Shown: positions 26,487-33,484 of the stretch, in pieces | How the letters are laid out: each line of letters begins with the position of its first letter | How positions within the stretch are numbered: the stretch's first letter is position 1 | NCBI GenBank assembly: GCA_039815145.1 | Contig: JBCBZW010000051.1 | Location: forward strand, 1 to 33,484 | From: Pseudomonadota bacterium | GTDB taxonomy: Bacteria; Pseudomonadota; Gammaproteobacteria; Steroidobacterales; JBCBZW01 | Length of the DNA: 33,484 bases | Direction: 5' to 3' | Notes under the pieces: model-generated | Database searches by the model: none | What the model was told of the DNA's origin: nothing | The model's input: only the letters and a program-made list of their open reading frames with translations | Program-made: the position numbers and the translations under genes

Positions 26487-27172
26487 GCCGTCTGCTCGCC
26501 CTCCCCGGTGCTTGCCGAATCGCCGGACCCCTCGCCCGGTTTTCGGTAACAGCCCGTTTCGAAGATGATCTCTCGTACCGCCTCAGGCATCAGGAACCTG
26601 GGGTCGTGACCGCGTGCGATGAGCGTCCGCACGCTGGTGGACGCGATCTCCAACTGGGTGACCGCGTGAATGTAGATGTGCCCACCGATCGATTCGTGTA
26701 GGTCACCGACGGTGCCGGTGCCACGGTCGACCAACAGCTCTCCCAGCGGACCGGTCGCCGGCGTGCGCCAACCGGGGCGATGCGCCACCACCACGTGCGC
26801 CAACTGCAGGATCTCGCGCCAATGGTGCCACTTGGGCAAGCCGATAAAGGCGTCCATGCCGACGATCAGCAGCAGGGGTCGGGTCGGAAACTCAGCGCGC
26901 AGATCGCTCAGCGTATCGACCGAGTAGGAAGGCCCCTCCCGCCGCAGCTCACGGTCATCGACGGTGAACCCCGGCAGGTCCTGCACCGCCGCCTGCACCA
27001 TGCGCAGGCGCAAGCTCGCATCGGCCATGGGCTGATCGCGGTGGGGTGGGGTGCCGGCCGGCATGAACCGCACTTCGTCCAGGCGCAGGGCGCGCTGCAG
27101 CTCGAAGGCCGTGCGCAGATGCCCGTAGTGCACAGGATCGAAGGTGCCACCAAAGACGCCGATGGCACTCAT
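26483..27172 (-). CDS. nadD: nicotinate-nucleotide adenylyltransferase
   Basis: 229 residues from the ATG at 27172 (GGAG 7-8 bases upstream). It transfers AMP from ATP to nicotinate mononucleotide in NAD synthesis. The nucleotidyltransferase start IGVFGGTFDPVHYGHLRTA contains the HxGH motif (H15, H18), RFMPAGTPPHR is the substrate loop, and STSVRTLIARG near the end is the ISSTxxR-type ATP motif. A roughly 20-residue hydrophilic tail follows the core. The ATG overlaps the holA stop by 4 bases. Confidence 0.96.
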   Translation of the reverse strand: MSAIGVFGGTFDPVHYGHLRTAFELQRALRLDEVRFMPAGTPPHRDQPMADASLRLRMVQAAVQDLPGFTVDDRELRREGPSYSVDTLSDLRAEFPTRPLLLIVGMDAFIGLPKWHHWREILQLAHVVVAHRPGWRTPATGPLGELLVDRGTGTVGDLHESIGGHIYIHAVTQLEIASTSVRTLIARGHDPRFLMPEAVREIIFETGCYRKPGEGSGDSASTGEGEQTA

Positions 27173-28209
27173 GCCGTTACTCCACAAACGCTCACTACCA
27201 ATCCCGTCACCACCGTCCAGGGGTCTACACCCGGTCGCGCCCCCTTCACCACTTCATCCGCGTACCCGGCCTGGCGCAAGGCGCGGTGGATACCCGGCAG
27301 GGTCAGGCGCCGTGCGGCACTCGCCAACAGACGTTGGCGTCTCGGCCAGACCCCGCGCATCGCCTCCGCCTCCGGTCGCCCGGTGGCCAGGGCCCAAGCG
27401 ATGGCCGCCAGGGAGCGCAGCTCACGGGTGAGCGCCCACAGCACCAAGGTCGGCTCCGCACCCTCTGCGCGCAGACCGCCGAGCACACGCAAGGCGCGCG
27501 GTGCGCGGGCGGCCAGGGCCGCGTCCGCCAGGGCGAAGACGTCGTAGCGGGCACTGTCGGCCACCGCCTCCCGCACCGCCTGCTCGTCGAGCGGTCCCGG
27601 CGAGTGCAGCAGAGATAGCTTGTCCACCTCCTGGGCCGCGGCCAGCAGGTTGCCTTCCACCCGGTCGGCGATGAGGGCCGTTGCCTCACGACTGGCCTCG
27701 AAGCCCCGTGAGCGCAAGCGCTGCGCGATCCAGCTCGGCAGCTGCTGCAGGTCAGGCGGCCACAGGGCGAGGTGCTCACCGGCGCCGGTCAGCGCCTTCA
27801 CCCAGCCGGCCTTGGACGTGGTCTTGTCCAGCTTCGGCGCGATCACCAGGAGCAGCGTATCCGTCGGCTCCGCAGCCAGAAAATCGCAGATCGCCTTGTC
27901 TCCGACCTTGCCAGGCTTGGCCGAATTCAAACGCAGTTCGATGAGCCGCCGTTCAGCGAAGAGCGACAGGCTCGCACCCTCCGCGAGGAGCTGCTGCCAG
28001 TCGAAGCCCCGCCCGGTGGTAAAGGTCATCCGCTCGGAGAACCCCTGACTCCTCGCCGCCTGGCGGATCGTGTCGCAGGCTTCCATGACCAGCAGAGGCT
28101 CATCCCCGCTGACCAGATAGGCGGGCTGGAGGTCCTGCTGAAGGTGGGTGGCGAGATTGTCGGTGGTCAGCTTCAAGCGGTCATCCGTTGAAATCCCGAT
28201 AGCCATCAT
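27169..28209 (-). CDS. holA: DNA polymerase III delta subunit
   Basis: 346 residues from the ATG at 28209 (E. coli HolA has 343). Clamp-loader subunit that opens the beta clamp. Landmarks are AYLVSGDEPLLVMEACDTIR, TLLLVIAPKLDKTTSKAGWVKAL, LPSWIAQRLRSRGFEASREA, RVEGNLLAAAQEVDKLSLL and DVFALADAAL. A TTG at 28176 would begin the protein at KLTTDNLATHLQ, which is where most family members start, and has GGATG 5-6 bases upstream. The true start is therefore either 28209 or 28176. Second copies of family motifs are not needed, so the gene looks intact. It lies 56 bases after the HEASH-protein gene. Confidence 0.93.
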   Translation of the reverse strand: MMAIGISTDDRLKLTTDNLATHLQQDLQPAYLVSGDEPLLVMEACDTIRQAARSQGFSERMTFTTGRGFDWQQLLAEGASLSLFAERRLIELRLNSAKPGKVGDKAICDFLAAEPTDTLLLVIAPKLDKTTSKAGWVKALTGAGEHLALWPPDLQQLPSWIAQRLRSRGFEASREATALIADRVEGNLLAAAQEVDKLSLLHSPGPLDEQAVREAVADSARYDVFALADAALAARAPRALRVLGGLRAEGAEPTLVLWALTRELRSLAAIAWALATGRPEAEAMRGVWPRRQRLLASAARRLTLPGIHRALRQAGYADEVVKGARPGVDPWTVVTGLVVSVCGVTA

Positions 28210-28265: not shown

Positions 28266-28745
28266 TTAGAGGGGCGCCAAGCGGCGGGCGGCGAGCCACT
28301 CCCGGGCCTGTTCCGCCTCCGTGTACCACCAGCGCCGCGCAGATCCGAGGCGAAAGGTGTAGCCCCAGGTGTCCATGTCGCTCAGCATCCGCTCGCGCCC
28401 CACGTCGGGCAGTTCGTCCGCCAGCAGCACCTGCAGCGCGCACACGGCGCACTCCTCCTCGTCGTCGCCGCCGGCGTCCGTGTGCAGACGAGCCCGCCGG
28501 GCGTCGTCCATGCAGACGTAGTGGGACGCTTCGTGAAGCACCGAATGCACGGGCGTGTCCGGCCGCGCGAGCAGGCGGTGCGCGACCAGCCCTGCCTCAG
28601 CGTCGCCCCAGTAGGAGCCAGGAACGACCTGCTCGGGGGCGAGCAGTTCGAAACCCAAGCCAAGCCGCGCCAGGAGAGCGCTCAAGGCGCGCTGATCCAC
28701 GTCGCGAACGCGCAGCACGCCGCGCGCGGACGGCCGGTCAGGCAT
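28266..28745 (-). CDS. conserved-looking hypothetical protein with HEASH metalloprotease-like motif
   Basis: 159 residues, cytoplasmic (no signal peptide or membrane segment). The centre reads TPVHSVLHEASHYVCMDDARR, with an HExxH signature (H71, E72, H75) of the zinc-metallopeptidase type, followed by DAGGDDEEECAVCALQ, where E96-E98 could provide a third metal ligand, plus C99 and C102. Further distinctive parts are GSYWGDAEAGLVAHRL, MLSDMDTWGYTFRLGSARRW and a Trp-rich C-terminus. The gene overlaps lptE by 8 bases and precedes holA, so it is a co-translated member of the operon. I do not recognise a named family; metal dependence or peptidase activity is inferred from the motif alone. Confidence 0.75.
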   Translation of the reverse strand: MPDRPSARGVLRVRDVDQRALSALLARLGLGFELLAPEQVVPGSYWGDAEAGLVAHRLLARPDTPVHSVLHEASHYVCMDDARRARLHTDAGGDDEEECAVCALQVLLADELPDVGRERMLSDMDTWGYTFRLGSARRWWYTEAEQAREWLAARRLAPL

Positions 28746-29247
28746 CCTCGCGGGCGAGTAGGTCCAGACGCCGGAAAAACCTGTTCACCAGATCGGTGAC
28801 CAACGCGTCCTTTAGCAGCTGCGCCTCGCGACGCTTGCCGAGGATGTCGTTGGGATCGAAACGATAGTCGCGGGTCACGGTGATTTGCTCGTCGCGGATC
28901 AACACCCGATTCCCTGCCCGCAGCTGGAAGCGTACGGTGTGGTACAGCTCCAACTCCTCGGGCACCCCCGTCGCCGAGACCGACAGGATGCGCTCGCCTG
29001 CCTCATCCTCCAGTAAGCGCAGCACGGCTGAGGCCTGGGCGCGGTTGGCCACCAGGGGCTGACCGCGCGCATCCATGGTCCGCCGCAACGCGACGGCGAA
29101 TTCGCTGCTCGCGTCAGCGGCTTCCAGGTAGGTGGCGCGCATCTCATCGGGCAGATCGCCCGTGCCCTGGAGGGTGAAGCCGCAGCCGGCGAGCACGGCG
29201 CACAGCACCGCCACCACGCCCCACCTCATCGCTTCAAAGTGCTTCAT
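28738..29247 (-). CDS. lptE: LPS-assembly lipoprotein LptE
   Basis: 169 residues. Outer-membrane lipoprotein that plugs and assembles the LptD translocon for lipopolysaccharide. Signal peptide with lipobox LAGC (Cys22), then the family start GFTLQGTGDLPDEMR, EFAVALRRTMDARG, the strand RFQLRAGNRVLIRDEQITVTRDYRFDPNDILGKRREAQLLKDALVTDLVNRFFRRL. An ATG at 29229 is an alternative start that would shorten the n-region. It overlaps the LeuRS-like gene by 4 bases (ATGA), the usual leuS-lptE junction. Confidence 0.95.
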   Translation of the reverse strand: MKHFEAMRWGVVAVLCAVLAGCGFTLQGTGDLPDEMRATYLEAADASSEFAVALRRTMDARGQPLVANRAQASAVLRLLEDEAGERILSVSATGVPEELELYHTVRFQLRAGNRVLIRDEQITVTRDYRFDPNDILGKRREAQLLKDALVTDLVNRFFRRLDLLAREDA

Positions 29248-30194
29248 CCGGTCACCACCAGATTCACCAGCTTACCGGGCACCACAATTACCTTACTAAT
29301 TTGCTTGCCTTGTATGTTTCTAGCGACGTTGACGTTAGCCCTGGCGAATCCTTCCACCCGAGCGCGATCGGCCGCTCGCGGCAGCACGATGCGCCCGCGC
29401 AGCTTCCCGTTCACCTGCACCACCCACTCGACTTCCTCACGCGCGAGCGCCGCCCCATCGATCGGCGGCCATGGCGCGTCCATCAAAGTGTCCTCGTGAC
29501 CCAGCCCCTGCCACAGCGCCTGGGTGAGGTAGGGCGCGATGGGCGAGAGGATCAGCACGACCGTCTCCAGGGCCTCCTGCGTGACGGCACGTCCCGCCTC
29601 GTCCATCTGCTCGAACTCGATCACGGCATTCACCAACGCCATGATGCCCGCGATAGCCGTGTGGGACGTACGGCGACGACCGATGTGATCGGTCACCTTG
29701 GCGATGGTCTCGTGCGTCCGCCGACGCATGGCCCTGGCCTCGTCATCCAGCGCGCGGCGATCGAGCGCCTGGGTGGGGCCGCCGTAGGTGTGCCGGTAGA
29801 TCAACCGCCAGAGCTTGCGGAGAAAGCGCCGGGCGCCCTGGAGAGCGCTCTCAGTGCATTCCAAGCGCTGGTCAGGGGGCGAGTTGGAGAGCAGAAACAA
29901 ACGAACGGTGTCCGCCCCGTAGGCGTCGAAGATGGGCGCCGGATTCCATTCACCATCCCTGGGTGGGTCTTCCGCCACGGGCCAATCGACCGCGCACGGC
30001 TCGGCCTCTAGCGGTGCTCGGTGCAGGCCCTGCATGCGTTGGTAGCGCGCGCTCACATCACGCATCACGCAACGTCGCAGGTGCTCCAAGGACATGTCCG
30101 CGACGTTGCTACGGATGGCGCAGACGCTCCTCGCCGCTGCCCATCGCTCCCGTACCCGTGCCTCGATCGGCGAGGGATCGTAGATGGCCTCCAT
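29244..30194 (-). CDS. truncated leucyl-tRNA synthetase-like protein without catalytic or editing domains
   Basis: 316 residues from the ATG at 30194 (AAAGG 7 bases upstream); E. coli LeuRS has 860. Residues 4-73 align to the LeuRS start: IYDPSPIEARVRERW, then SLEHLRRCVMRDVSARYQRM, which corresponds to the HIGH region, but HMGH has become SLEH. From about 74 to 86 the protein jumps to the region just after KMSKS, which is itself lost. From IFDAYGADTVRLFLL (88 on) to the end (VVPGKLVNLVV) the anticodon-binding and C-terminal domains are complete and well conserved (HETIAKVTDHIGRR, VQVNGKLRGRI). Roughly 540 residues are missing, covering most of the Rossmann fold and CP1 editing. It cannot charge tRNA by itself. 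It may bind tRNA-Leu or act as a regulator; a full leuS should exist elsewhere. It leads the lptE-holA operon. No internal stop or frameshift is seen. Confidence 0.85.
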   Translation of the reverse strand: MEAIYDPSPIEARVRERWAAARSVCAIRSNVADMSLEHLRRCVMRDVSARYQRMQGLHRAPLEAEPCAVDWPVAEDPPRDGEWNPAPIFDAYGADTVRLFLLSNSPPDQRLECTESALQGARRFLRKLWRLIYRHTYGGPTQALDRRALDDEARAMRRRTHETIAKVTDHIGRRRTSHTAIAGIMALVNAVIEFEQMDEAGRAVTQEALETVVLILSPIAPYLTQALWQGLGHEDTLMDAPWPPIDGAALAREEVEWVVQVNGKLRGRIVLPRAADRARVEGFARANVNVARNIQGKQISKVIVVPGKLVNLVVTG

Positions 30195-30378: not shown

Positions 30379-31560
30379 GTGAGTCCCAAACACACCGGCC
30401 GCTTGAAGGCGGCCCTGCAGGCGCGGCTGATCGCCATCCTGTACTGCCACATTCCAGCGACGGTGCTCGGGGCGCTCATCGTGTTCGGCATCAACCTGGC
30501 CTACTACGGGAGCGAGCTACCTGTCGCTTCCAAGTACTGGTGGATAGGACTGACACTGGCCTTCGCCGTGGGGCGCAGTGCGCTCTACGTTGCGCACCGA
30601 CTTCGCCCTGCGCTCACGACCCCGCTTGCCTGGCGCAACCTCCACGCGGCTACTACGTTATGTCACGCGGCGGCTTGGGTCGTCAACGTCCACGCTGTGG
30701 TCTCCCTCGGCTCTCCGCCCGAACTCACCATCGCCGTCATTTCCGTGGCTGGGGTGGTGGGCGCCGCCATCGCCACCACCTCGGCCTCCATCGTGACCTT
30801 CGGTTGCTTCACCGTGCCGCTGGCCCTCGCCCTGCCGCTGCTCATGTGGCCGCTGGAGAGCGACTTCGACTACACGCTGATCGCCGAATGGCTGGCCTGG
30901 TTCACCTTCATGCTCATCTCCGGCCATCGCGTGCATCACACGCTGGTCACGTCCGAGCAGAACCGATTGGAGAAGGAAGCGCTCGTCGAAGAGCTCAAGA
31001 CCTTGTCGGAGCGCGACCCGCTCACCAACCTCTACAACCGGCGCCGCTTCGCTTCGCGGTTGGATGTGGCGTGGCAGGAGGCGCGGGCGAAGGGCTGCGC
31101 CGTGGGCTTGCTGGTCGCGGACATCGACTACTTCAAACGCTACAACGACGCCGTGGGGCATGGCGCGGGCGATGAGTGCCTGCGTGCCGTCGCCGATGAG
31201 CTGGAGAACTTCTGCGCGAGGAACGCGGCAGAGACGCTACTCGCACGCTACGGCGGAGAGGAATTCGTTGTACTGCTGCCGAACACGGATCCGACCGAAG
31301 CCGCCAAGCTGGGGGAGGCCCTGCGTGCGCACTTGGAGCAGTGCGCGATACCGCACCCAGACTCGAGCATCTCTGCGCACGTCACCCTGAGCGTCGGCGT
31401 CGCCACCCTGCCGCCGGAAGAAGAGGAGCGCGAACCGCTCTCGCTCTTCCGCGAAGCGGATCTAGCGCTCTACCGCGCCAAGTCCAGGGGGCGCAACTGC
31501 GTGGTGGCCGCGGAGCTGGCGACGCCCGCCACCGGCAGCCACGAACGCGCTGCCAGCTAA
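30379..31560 (+). CDS. membrane-anchored diguanylate cyclase (GGDEF)
   Basis: 393 residues from the GTG at 30379, chosen for the GGGGGGAGGG site about 8 bases upstream. Residues 1-195 contain about six hydrophobic segments (HIPATVLGALIVFGINLAYY, IGLTLAFAVGRSALYVAH, IAVISVAGVVGAAIATTSAS, FTVPLALALPLLMWPL and others). A short linker helix (NRLEKEALVEELKTLSERD) leads to the GGDEF domain: DPLTNLYNRRRF, DIDYFKRYNDAVGHGAGD, and the active-site loop ARYGGEEF. GGEEF is an active variant, so synthesis of c-di-GMP is expected. The RxxD product-inhibition site normally five residues before the loop is absent (AAET instead). Divergent from the LeuRS-like gene. If the CRP/Clp-like regulator binds c-di-GMP, the two could be linked, but that is speculation. 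Confidence 0.92.
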   Translation: MSPKHTGRLKAALQARLIAILYCHIPATVLGALIVFGINLAYYGSELPVASKYWWIGLTLAFAVGRSALYVAHRLRPALTTPLAWRNLHAATTLCHAAAWVVNVHAVVSLGSPPELTIAVISVAGVVGAAIATTSASIVTFGCFTVPLALALPLLMWPLESDFDYTLIAEWLAWFTFMLISGHRVHHTLVTSEQNRLEKEALVEELKTLSERDPLTNLYNRRRFASRLDVAWQEARAKGCAVGLLVADIDYFKRYNDAVGHGAGDECLRAVADELENFCARNAAETLLARYGGEEFVVLLPNTDPTEAAKLGEALRAHLEQCAIPHPDSSISAHVTLSVGVATLPPEEEEREPLSLFREADLALYRAKSRGRNCVVAAELATPATGSHERAAS

Positions 31561-31942: not shown

Positions 31943-33484
31943 CTAGTCGCCGCGGCCGACGGCATCCTGACTGATGGAGCCATCGCTCCACAGGTAGCCG
32001 TCGCTCCACAGGTACGCATCACTCCAGAGGTAGGCGTCACTCCACAGGTACGCGTCGCTCCAGAGGTAACCGTCACTCCACAGGTAGCCATCGCTCCAGA
32101 GGTAACCGTCACTCCACAGGTAGCCGTCACTCCACAGGTAACCATCGCTCCAGAGGTAACCGTCGCTCCATAGGTAGCCGTCACTCCACAGGTAAGCGGC
32201 GCCCCACTGAGCGGAACCCCACAGCTCGGCCGTGTCCTCGATCAGGATCACCGACCCCTGGTTCGAACGGGACATCTTCGGCGACGGGGCGGTGGCGGCG
32301 AAGCCGTTTTGCGCCAGGGCGGCCTGCACGTCGAGCACACCCGCTCCAACCTCCACCGGATCGCCGGCGATCTTGCGCGCGGAGCGCATCAGGCGGGCCT
32401 TGATCGTGGCCGGATTCAGCGAGGGATCCTGCGCCAGCATCAATGCTGCCGCGCCGGAGACCACGCCTGACGCCATGCTGGTGCCGGACATCTCGAGGTA
32501 GCTGCCGCCGTTGCAGTCGAGAAGGCACTCGACCACACCCTCGGGCAGCTGGTCCTTCAAGTTGGCGTGGCCAGCCACCGCTGCCACCACGCGGTTACCC
32601 GGCGCCAGCAGATCCGGCTTCAGGAAGTGGTCGTACATGGTGGGCCCACGCGAGGAGTAGCTCGACACGTAGTCATCGGCGAAGTTCGCACCCGTGGCCG
32701 CATCCGTCACCGAGCCCACGGTGATGATGTTGCGCGCGATGCCGGGACTCGTGATGTAGAAGTTGCCGAGGGAACCGTAGTTACCGGCCGAGGCCACCAC
32801 CACGATGCCTTCGTCCCACAGTGCTTCCACGGCCTGCACTAGCGGATCGAACTCAGCAGCCGTCTCGACCGCCTTACCCAGGCTCATGTTCACCACACGA
32901 ATGTTGTACTGCTTGGCGTTGTTAGCCACCCAGTCCAGGGCGCTGAGCACACCGCTGACCGTGCCCCTGCCGTCGCCGTCGAGGACGCGCAGGTCGTAGA
33001 TCGGCGCCTGGGGCGCAACACCGCGGTACTGACCGAGGGAGCCGAGACCACTACCCGACAGGGCGCCGGCGACGTGCGTGCCATGACCGGCCGGATCGCG
33101 GTCCGTGATGAAGGCGTTGGGGCCTTCCGCGTAGAAGCTGCCCGCGCTGGTGTTGTGCTTGTTGTCACAGTGCACGGCGAGCAGGTTGTACTCGCCCGCC
33201 CACGCCTTCGTGGTGTCGTACAGACCCAGCTGCAGGCGGCCCTGCTCCGGCCAGTTGTCGAGCTTACTCGACGCACTCACCGATCGGGCGTAGACCTGCT
33301 GCGCATCGACGAAGACACGCAGGTAGCGATCGGAGCCGAGCTTGGCCACGATGTGTTGGGGAACGCCGTTGCGGTGCGGCGGCATCCAGTTCGCCACCAA
33401 ATCGCCCTTCGTCGTCTTGATGCGGAATCGCATTCCACTGTGACCAAGATCTTCGAGCTCGAAGGAGTTGTTCGAACCCACGCC
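31943..33484 (-). CDS. subtilisin-like (S8) serine protease with LamG-like segment and YLWSD repeats, N-terminus beyond window
   Basis: Frame open to the window edge, so the start, signal peptide and probably the catalytic Asp box are missing. The first about 115 visible residues resemble a LamG/concanavalin-A-like domain (FELEDLGHSGMRFRIK, DRYLRVFVDAQQV, LGLYDTTKAWAGEYNLLAVH). The protease core follows, with the catalytic His in PAGHGTHVAGALSG (around 33070-33090), DGRGTVSGVLSALDWV, VVNMSLGKAVE, the oxyanion Asn in VVVASAGNYGS (around 32780) and the catalytic Ser in MSGTSMASGVVSGAAALML (around 32480). After a linker the C-terminus is twelve YLWSD(G/A) hexapeptides and SISQDAVGRGD. An exported or surface enzyme is expected. 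It heads a two-gene operon with the small secreted protein. Confidence 0.9.
   Translation of the reverse strand, partial: GVGSNNSFELEDLGHSGMRFRIKTTKGDLVANWMPPHRNGVPQHIVAKLGSDRYLRVFVDAQQVYARSVSASSKLDNWPEQGRLQLGLYDTTKAWAGEYNLLAVHCDNKHNTSAGSFYAEGPNAFITDRDPAGHGTHVAGALSGSGLGSLGQYRGVAPQAPIYDLRVLDGDGRGTVSGVLSALDWVANNAKQYNIRVVNMSLGKAVETAAEFDPLVQAVEALWDEGIVVVASAGNYGSLGNFYITSPGIARNIITVGSVTDAATGANFADDYVSSYSSRGPTMYDHFLKPDLLAPGNRVVAAVAGHANLKDQLPEGVVECLLDCNGGSYLEMSGTSMASGVVSGAAALMLAQDPSLNPATIKARLMRSARKIAGDPVEVGAGVLDVQAALAQNGFAATAPSPKMSRSNQGSVILIEDTAELWGSAQWGAAYLWSDGYLWSDGYLWSDGYLWSDGYLWSDGYLWSDGYLWSDGYLWSDAYLWSDAYLWSDAYLWSDGYLWSDGSISQDAVGRGD
31979..32194 (-). repeat. twelve tandem 18-bp repeats encoding YLWSD(G/A)
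   Basis: Twelve uninterrupted 18-base units in coding phase. Read in the protein direction they give seven YLWSDG, three YLWSDA and two YLWSDG. The bases differ mainly at third codon positions (CTG/CTC/CTA, AGT/AGC, GAC/GAT, GGC/GGT), while the amino acids are nearly invariant. That pattern implies selection on the peptide rather than recent slippage alone. Confidence 0.97.

Follow-up and report, generated by a model that had tools for sequence, protein, structure and literature searches.

A reduced leuS frame upstream of lptE

The window, i.e. the whole stretch of 33,484 nucleotides that was analysed, contains a leuS-lptE-holA locus in which the place of leuS is taken by a 316-codon open frame (29244..30194, minus strand). 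ORF reading together with LeuRS profile searches and alignments identified this frame as a reduced native leuS, hereafter called the stub. Its ATG is located at 30194, the final sense codon ends at 29247 and the stop codon covers 29246-29244; the single intact frame of 316 residues described in a first-pass annotation was thus confirmed and lies on the minus strand. A GGGAAAGG stretch is found 7 bases upstream of the ATG. The stop codon overlaps the start of lptE (28738..29247, minus strand) in an ATGA, and holA (27169..28185, minus strand, start codon unsettled), found by ORF reading and domain search, is located further downstream. The upstream border of the locus is a divergently oriented diguanylate cyclase (GGDEF) gene (30379..31560, plus strand), identified by domain search and present in the congener too.

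Direct contact between the leuS stop and an ATG (TGATG or TAATG) was seen by eye in 8 of 12 relatives' junctions, taken from 80 named loci. The ATGA overlap of the stub was therefore probably inherited, and it argues only weakly for function, since comparable junctions are found next to complete leuS genes of relatives. The promoter scan revealed no sigma-70-type site, and four terminator-like sites were found where 0.8 were expected, two of the four being one overlapping site within the stub.

Two further genes of the window deserve mention. Between lptE and holA lies a frame of 159 amino acids (28266-28745, minus strand) that contains a HEASH (HExxH-like) motif and is not matched by any Pfam family at E 0.01; it is 78% identical in the congener, is present at three of the 80 named holA loci (L107, L123 and L129) and possibly represents an uncharacterised metallopeptidase-like family. 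A Subtilase-family protease (31943-33481, minus strand) ends in a C-terminal tail formed by an 18-bp tandem array, which encodes about 12 copies of a YLWSDG repeat (31978-32194).

The stub retains the C-terminal half of LeuRS

The bacterial LeuRS profile TIGR00396 (leuS_bact) aligns to stub residues 84-314 alone, corresponding to profile positions 615-842 of 843, with 184.7 bits. This is below the curated cut-off of 548.4, so that the stub does not qualify as a whole LeuRS, and the only family that Pfam reports on it is the anticodon-binding domain. A profile built from 33 relatives of the order covers the same residues from first to last in an ungapped alignment of equal length in stub and profile (279.1 bits), confirming that the post-KMSKS half is complete, as had been claimed; compared with E. 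coli LeuRS it is likewise present in full. The similarity to LeuRS is far above chance level. According to both profiles, Pfam and the predicted fold, residues 84-316 (29247..29945, minus strand) comprise the anticodon-binding helical bundle and the C-terminal domain.

The N-terminal block SLEHLRRCVMRDVSARYQRMQG reaches only 7.0 bits against the relatives' profile. Two parts of the N-terminal region can be placed: the LeuRS start, over about 24 residues (residues 1-24, 30123..30194, minus strand), recognised by alignment with weak similarity, and a degraded 25-residue block around the HIGH motif (residues 34-58, 30021..30095, minus strand), in which the profile of relatives shows five of 11 invariant residues to be altered. 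The first-pass annotation had read this region as the LeuRS N-terminus to about residue 73. Start and HIGH block were recovered, but the extent was given too loosely: the alignment shows separate losses, one between start and HIGH block and one after the HIGH block, with diverged sequence between them. From there to the far side of KMSKS everything is gone except for a few residues without confident placement. The change of HMGH to SLEH and the loss of KMSKS were both borne out by the alignment; the stub therefore lacks the HIGH and KMSKS class I core of a functional LeuRS, and with it the catalytic core and CP1. Every internal loss preserves the frame, and the search for hidden frameshifts reported no match to the native LeuRS profile in the other two frames.

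In the predicted structure, pLDDT is mostly about 90 over residues 121-316 and below 50 at residues 1-30 and 59-82. The top fold matches are tRNA-bound E. coli LeuRS structures (231-236 columns, TMq 0.67-0.71), a result to be expected because the input alignment consisted of LeuRSs.

A full-length leuS of another clade in the same genome

The genome of the window (G000) comprises 6.0 Mb in 295 contigs and is 99.5% complete with 1.6% contamination. Searching it with TIGR00396 yielded one complete leuS (C113:3966-6488, a frame of 847, 1132.9 bits) with intact HVGH and KMSKS motifs, and the encoded LeuRS is 39% identical to the stub across the C-terminal half. The congener G001 carries the same gene on its contig C39 in a collinear neighbourhood (blastn 85% over 5.9 kb).

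We calculated a tree from 42 C-terminal halves, namely those of the stub and of 41 of 42 selected leuS frames, the partial L087 being omitted. The stub falls inside 33 native-type LeuRSs and the C113 and C39 genes inside a second group of eight, to which certain other families of the order contribute genes; each of the two splits has 100/100 support. The branch of the stub is long (1.14) and its exact position unsure, and the connection between the two groups runs through long branches.

Since a full-length leuS is present elsewhere, the stub is a reduced second copy, as the first-pass annotation had proposed as one of its readings. The complete gene is of another clade, however, and not a near duplicate, so that a gene of different ancestry seems to have displaced the native one. 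The stub occupies the native locus and belongs to the native clade, and the replacement of other ancestry is found in the same genome; the stub very probably originated from a native leuS displaced by a leuS of another clade.

A relic of native leuS in the congener

Family f1 consists of two genomes, that of the window and G001, and their HolA proteins are 94% identical. The sole match to the stub in G001 is its second-group leuS, with 34% identity. At the lptE-holA locus both flanks of the stub are collinear in G001 and the window, but the distance between the blastn blocks is about 345 bp in G001 versus about 1,120 bp in the window, and this gap includes ~55 bp of lptE. Within the G001 gap a relic of the leuS end was detected: compared with the last 130 bases of the stub it has an alignment score of 50, versus a mean of 20.4 (sd 3.0) and a maximum of 34 in 500 shuffles, and without the bases adjoining lptE the score is still 40 (shuffle mean 19.3, maximum 32). 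The leader and start part of leuS scored 39 in the G001 gap, which is within chance (shuffle mean 23.3, maximum 40). Read across in one frame, the relic contains two stops; lptE of G001 is nonetheless open. The native LeuRS protein profile did not match the relic, which is visible at the DNA level only. Since the end of leuS is recognisable in the shortened gap, the native gene has been eroded in both species, and much further in G001.

Similar stubs in relatives

We surveyed 80 named loci around holA for leuS. A native leuS with more than 700 residues covered is present at 55 of them, 11 have a partial native leuS, in every case running up to the border of the retrieved piece, and two have a partial second-group leuS far upstream. 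The remaining 12 loci are without leuS, six of these having less than 3.5 kb upstream. Scanning the order gave a leuS match in 380 of 396 genomes and none in 16. Among the matches listed in the upper part of the table, 13 short frames, none above about 710 codons, were inspected. The N-terminal part was located on another contig for ten of them, the start was not found for two (G325 and G327), and one is interrupted internally; these 13 are split, cut or interrupted genes. The interrupted one (G352:C114:35116-37695) is a native leuS of full length (842 positions) with one internal TAG, for which sequence error, readthrough and early decay are candidate readings.

An N-terminal bit joined to a C-terminal half was seen neither in the 80 named loci nor among the matches listed from the 396 genomes. 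Homologues of 300-350 residues, which the first-pass annotation had suggested looking for in relatives, were thus not encountered in the build of the stub. A short protein conserved in several species is not what we observed: the stub is absent in the sole congener examined, and no second one appeared in the survey. Two unusual native LeuRSs, L120 and L097, were considered as intermediates and rejected; each is intact, of full length and the only one above cut-off in its genome. In the second-clade carriers L083-L089 the search for native-type relics gave only full genes (that of L087 being cut short) and matches of at most 17.4 bits, taken as another class I synthetase. A pattern scan for near relatives among genome contigs returned 18 matches and zero relatives, and the corresponding HolA scan, with the best 80 kept, reached a top identity of 55% and may omit very near records.

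Decay and constraint in the stub

Several observations suggest decay. The stub changes six of 40 columns that are invariant in the 33 relatives, the most of the 34 rows (next L092 with 5/45), and the altered residues in the kept half are W113C, D170H, F177S, N178H, A183G and H222Y. In the named set it changes 4/25 and 11/49 invariant columns, to which L120, an intact LeuRS, comes near with 4/29 and 9/50. When LeuRS divergence was set against that of HolA, the C-terminal half of the stub was the most diverged of 60 genomes (mean z -1.48, next -1.20), and GC3 of its last 36 codons is 0.58. The changes in invariant columns, the HolA residual and the low terminal GC3 point to relaxed constraint.

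Other observations suggest that the C-terminal half was maintained. Between the two congeners dS is 0.96 for holA and 1.12 for lptE. GC3 is 0.81 in the C-terminal half and 0.83 in holA, with codon-position G+C alike, and the profile score of this half is 294 bits versus 288-369 in 32 full-length relatives, the third lowest of 33 rows. The HIGH block is more altered than the C-terminal half (5/11 versus 6/40 invariant columns, Fisher p 0.044, and 0.11 at two looser cut-offs). In neutral simulations the frame and the invariant residues were nearly always lost by 0.2-0.3 substitutions per site, and one neutral rate shared by the two ends gives a poor fit, the tail products of the N- and C-terminal blocks peaking at 1.4%, or 0.06% if the absence of stops is included. 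These values are guides and not P-values, as the simulations assumed mutation spectra and indel rates, started from the present sequence and multiplied tail areas; all decay tests are leads only, because they were devised post hoc and the locus came to attention through its open frame.

Since the C-terminal half is without indels, scores at the level of the most diverged full-length LeuRSs and retains 34 of the 40 invariant residues despite a dS of ~1 in holA and lptE, the constraint on it seems to have been long-lasting and, judged from the sequence, to have persisted for most of the time since the species split. Two readings fit: a late death of the old leuS, or continued retention of its tRNA-binding half. 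The functional product argued for earlier is thus a possibility only: the ATGA overlap was probably inherited and no such stub was found in the relatives examined, although the constraint on the C-terminal half seems long.

Discussion

When an essential synthetase gives way to one of different ancestry, usually only the finished result can be seen. Here the losing leuS is still legible in both congeners, in each at a different stage, and the tRNA-binding half seems to be the last part to decay. We infer that the ancestor of the two known species of the genus had already acquired a LeuRS gene of another clade at a second site, and that the product of this gene now charges tRNA-Leu. Once the cell had two LeuRSs, the native gammaproteobacterial leuS could be lost. 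In G001 it would have been deleted down to the scrambled relic, of which about 130 bp are recognisable, and in the window's genome losses that kept the frame would have removed the catalytic core, CP1, HIGH and KMSKS, leaving a product that cannot charge tRNA. What is left at the native site is, on balance, best regarded as a dispensable leftover. Constraint on its C-terminal half would have ended late, since the cell probably went on using the old enzyme, or its RNA-binding half at the least, for most of the time.

A less probable but serious alternative is that the displaced leuS was reduced to a working pseudo-synthetase, with the C-terminal half as a putative tRNA-Leu-binding protein (a chaperone, a sensor of uncharged tRNA-Leu or a partner of LeuRS). 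The C-terminal half is less altered than the N-terminal block and free of indels, its predicted fold resembles tRNA-bound E. coli LeuRS (as expected from an alignment of LeuRSs), and the frame is open although holA and lptE have reached dS values around 1 and neutral simulations nearly always break it by 0.2 substitutions per site. Against this, the stub occurs in one genome only and was lost in the congener, six residues invariant in 33 relatives are altered within the very half that was kept, and the late death of a full-length second leuS accounts for the same constraint. A present function of the product is possible. That it is a free-standing tRNA-Leu-binding protein which works beside the other LeuRS or regulates it, i.e. 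a pseudo-synthetase derived from xenologous displacement and not from duplication, we regard as possible though rather unlikely.

It is very unlikely that the frame has been retained merely as a leader whose translation is coupled to that of lptE. The ATGA overlap and the stop/ATG contacts in the relatives would be in line with such a role, but the counterpart in G001 is short and has two stops in frame while lptE is still open, and coupling alone would not keep LeuRS residues or a gap-free C-terminal half. The assembly collapse that the first-pass annotation had left open, i.e. a collapsed or chimeric leuS in a draft of 295 contigs, is the least probable explanation and was rejected, since a complete leuS sits elsewhere in a region collinear with the congener, both flanks of the stub are collinear with G001 around a shorter relic, and the stub shows more than one loss, diverged sequence between the losses and substitutions at invariant positions, which is unlike a collapse.

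The leftover of a displaced native leuS can be compared with two known cases. In Halobacteriales a second LeuRS integrates elsewhere, the two forms coexist and one may be lost (PMC3436685). Coexistence followed by loss is the same, whereas in the present case the loser can still be seen, in two congeners that differ in how far its erosion has gone. The second LeuRSs of Sulfolobaceae (LeuRS-I) and Halobacteria (LeuRS2) have lost charging or show it much reduced and have kept tRNA binding; LeuRS-I still makes leucyl-adenylate, LeuRS2 still charges a little, and both contain the catalytic domain (PMC9437257). In contrast, the stub has the putative RNA-binding half alone.

In the open-access literature we found no report of a bacterial LeuRS C-terminal half left by displacement or of a truncated LeuRS pseudogene, and nothing usable on the beta subunit of Aquifex LeuRS as a precedent. 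With this locus it becomes testable whether such synthetase fragments are no more than remains or the material from which tRNA-binding proteins arise.

In six genomes of other families the second-group leuS is found next to lptE, either co-oriented with it (L084, L088 and L089) or divergent from it (L083, L085 and L086), whereas in both congeners this gene is located away from lptE. Between the congeners its dS is 0.46, about half of the holA and lptE values, which could reflect stronger codon bias or a later exchange.
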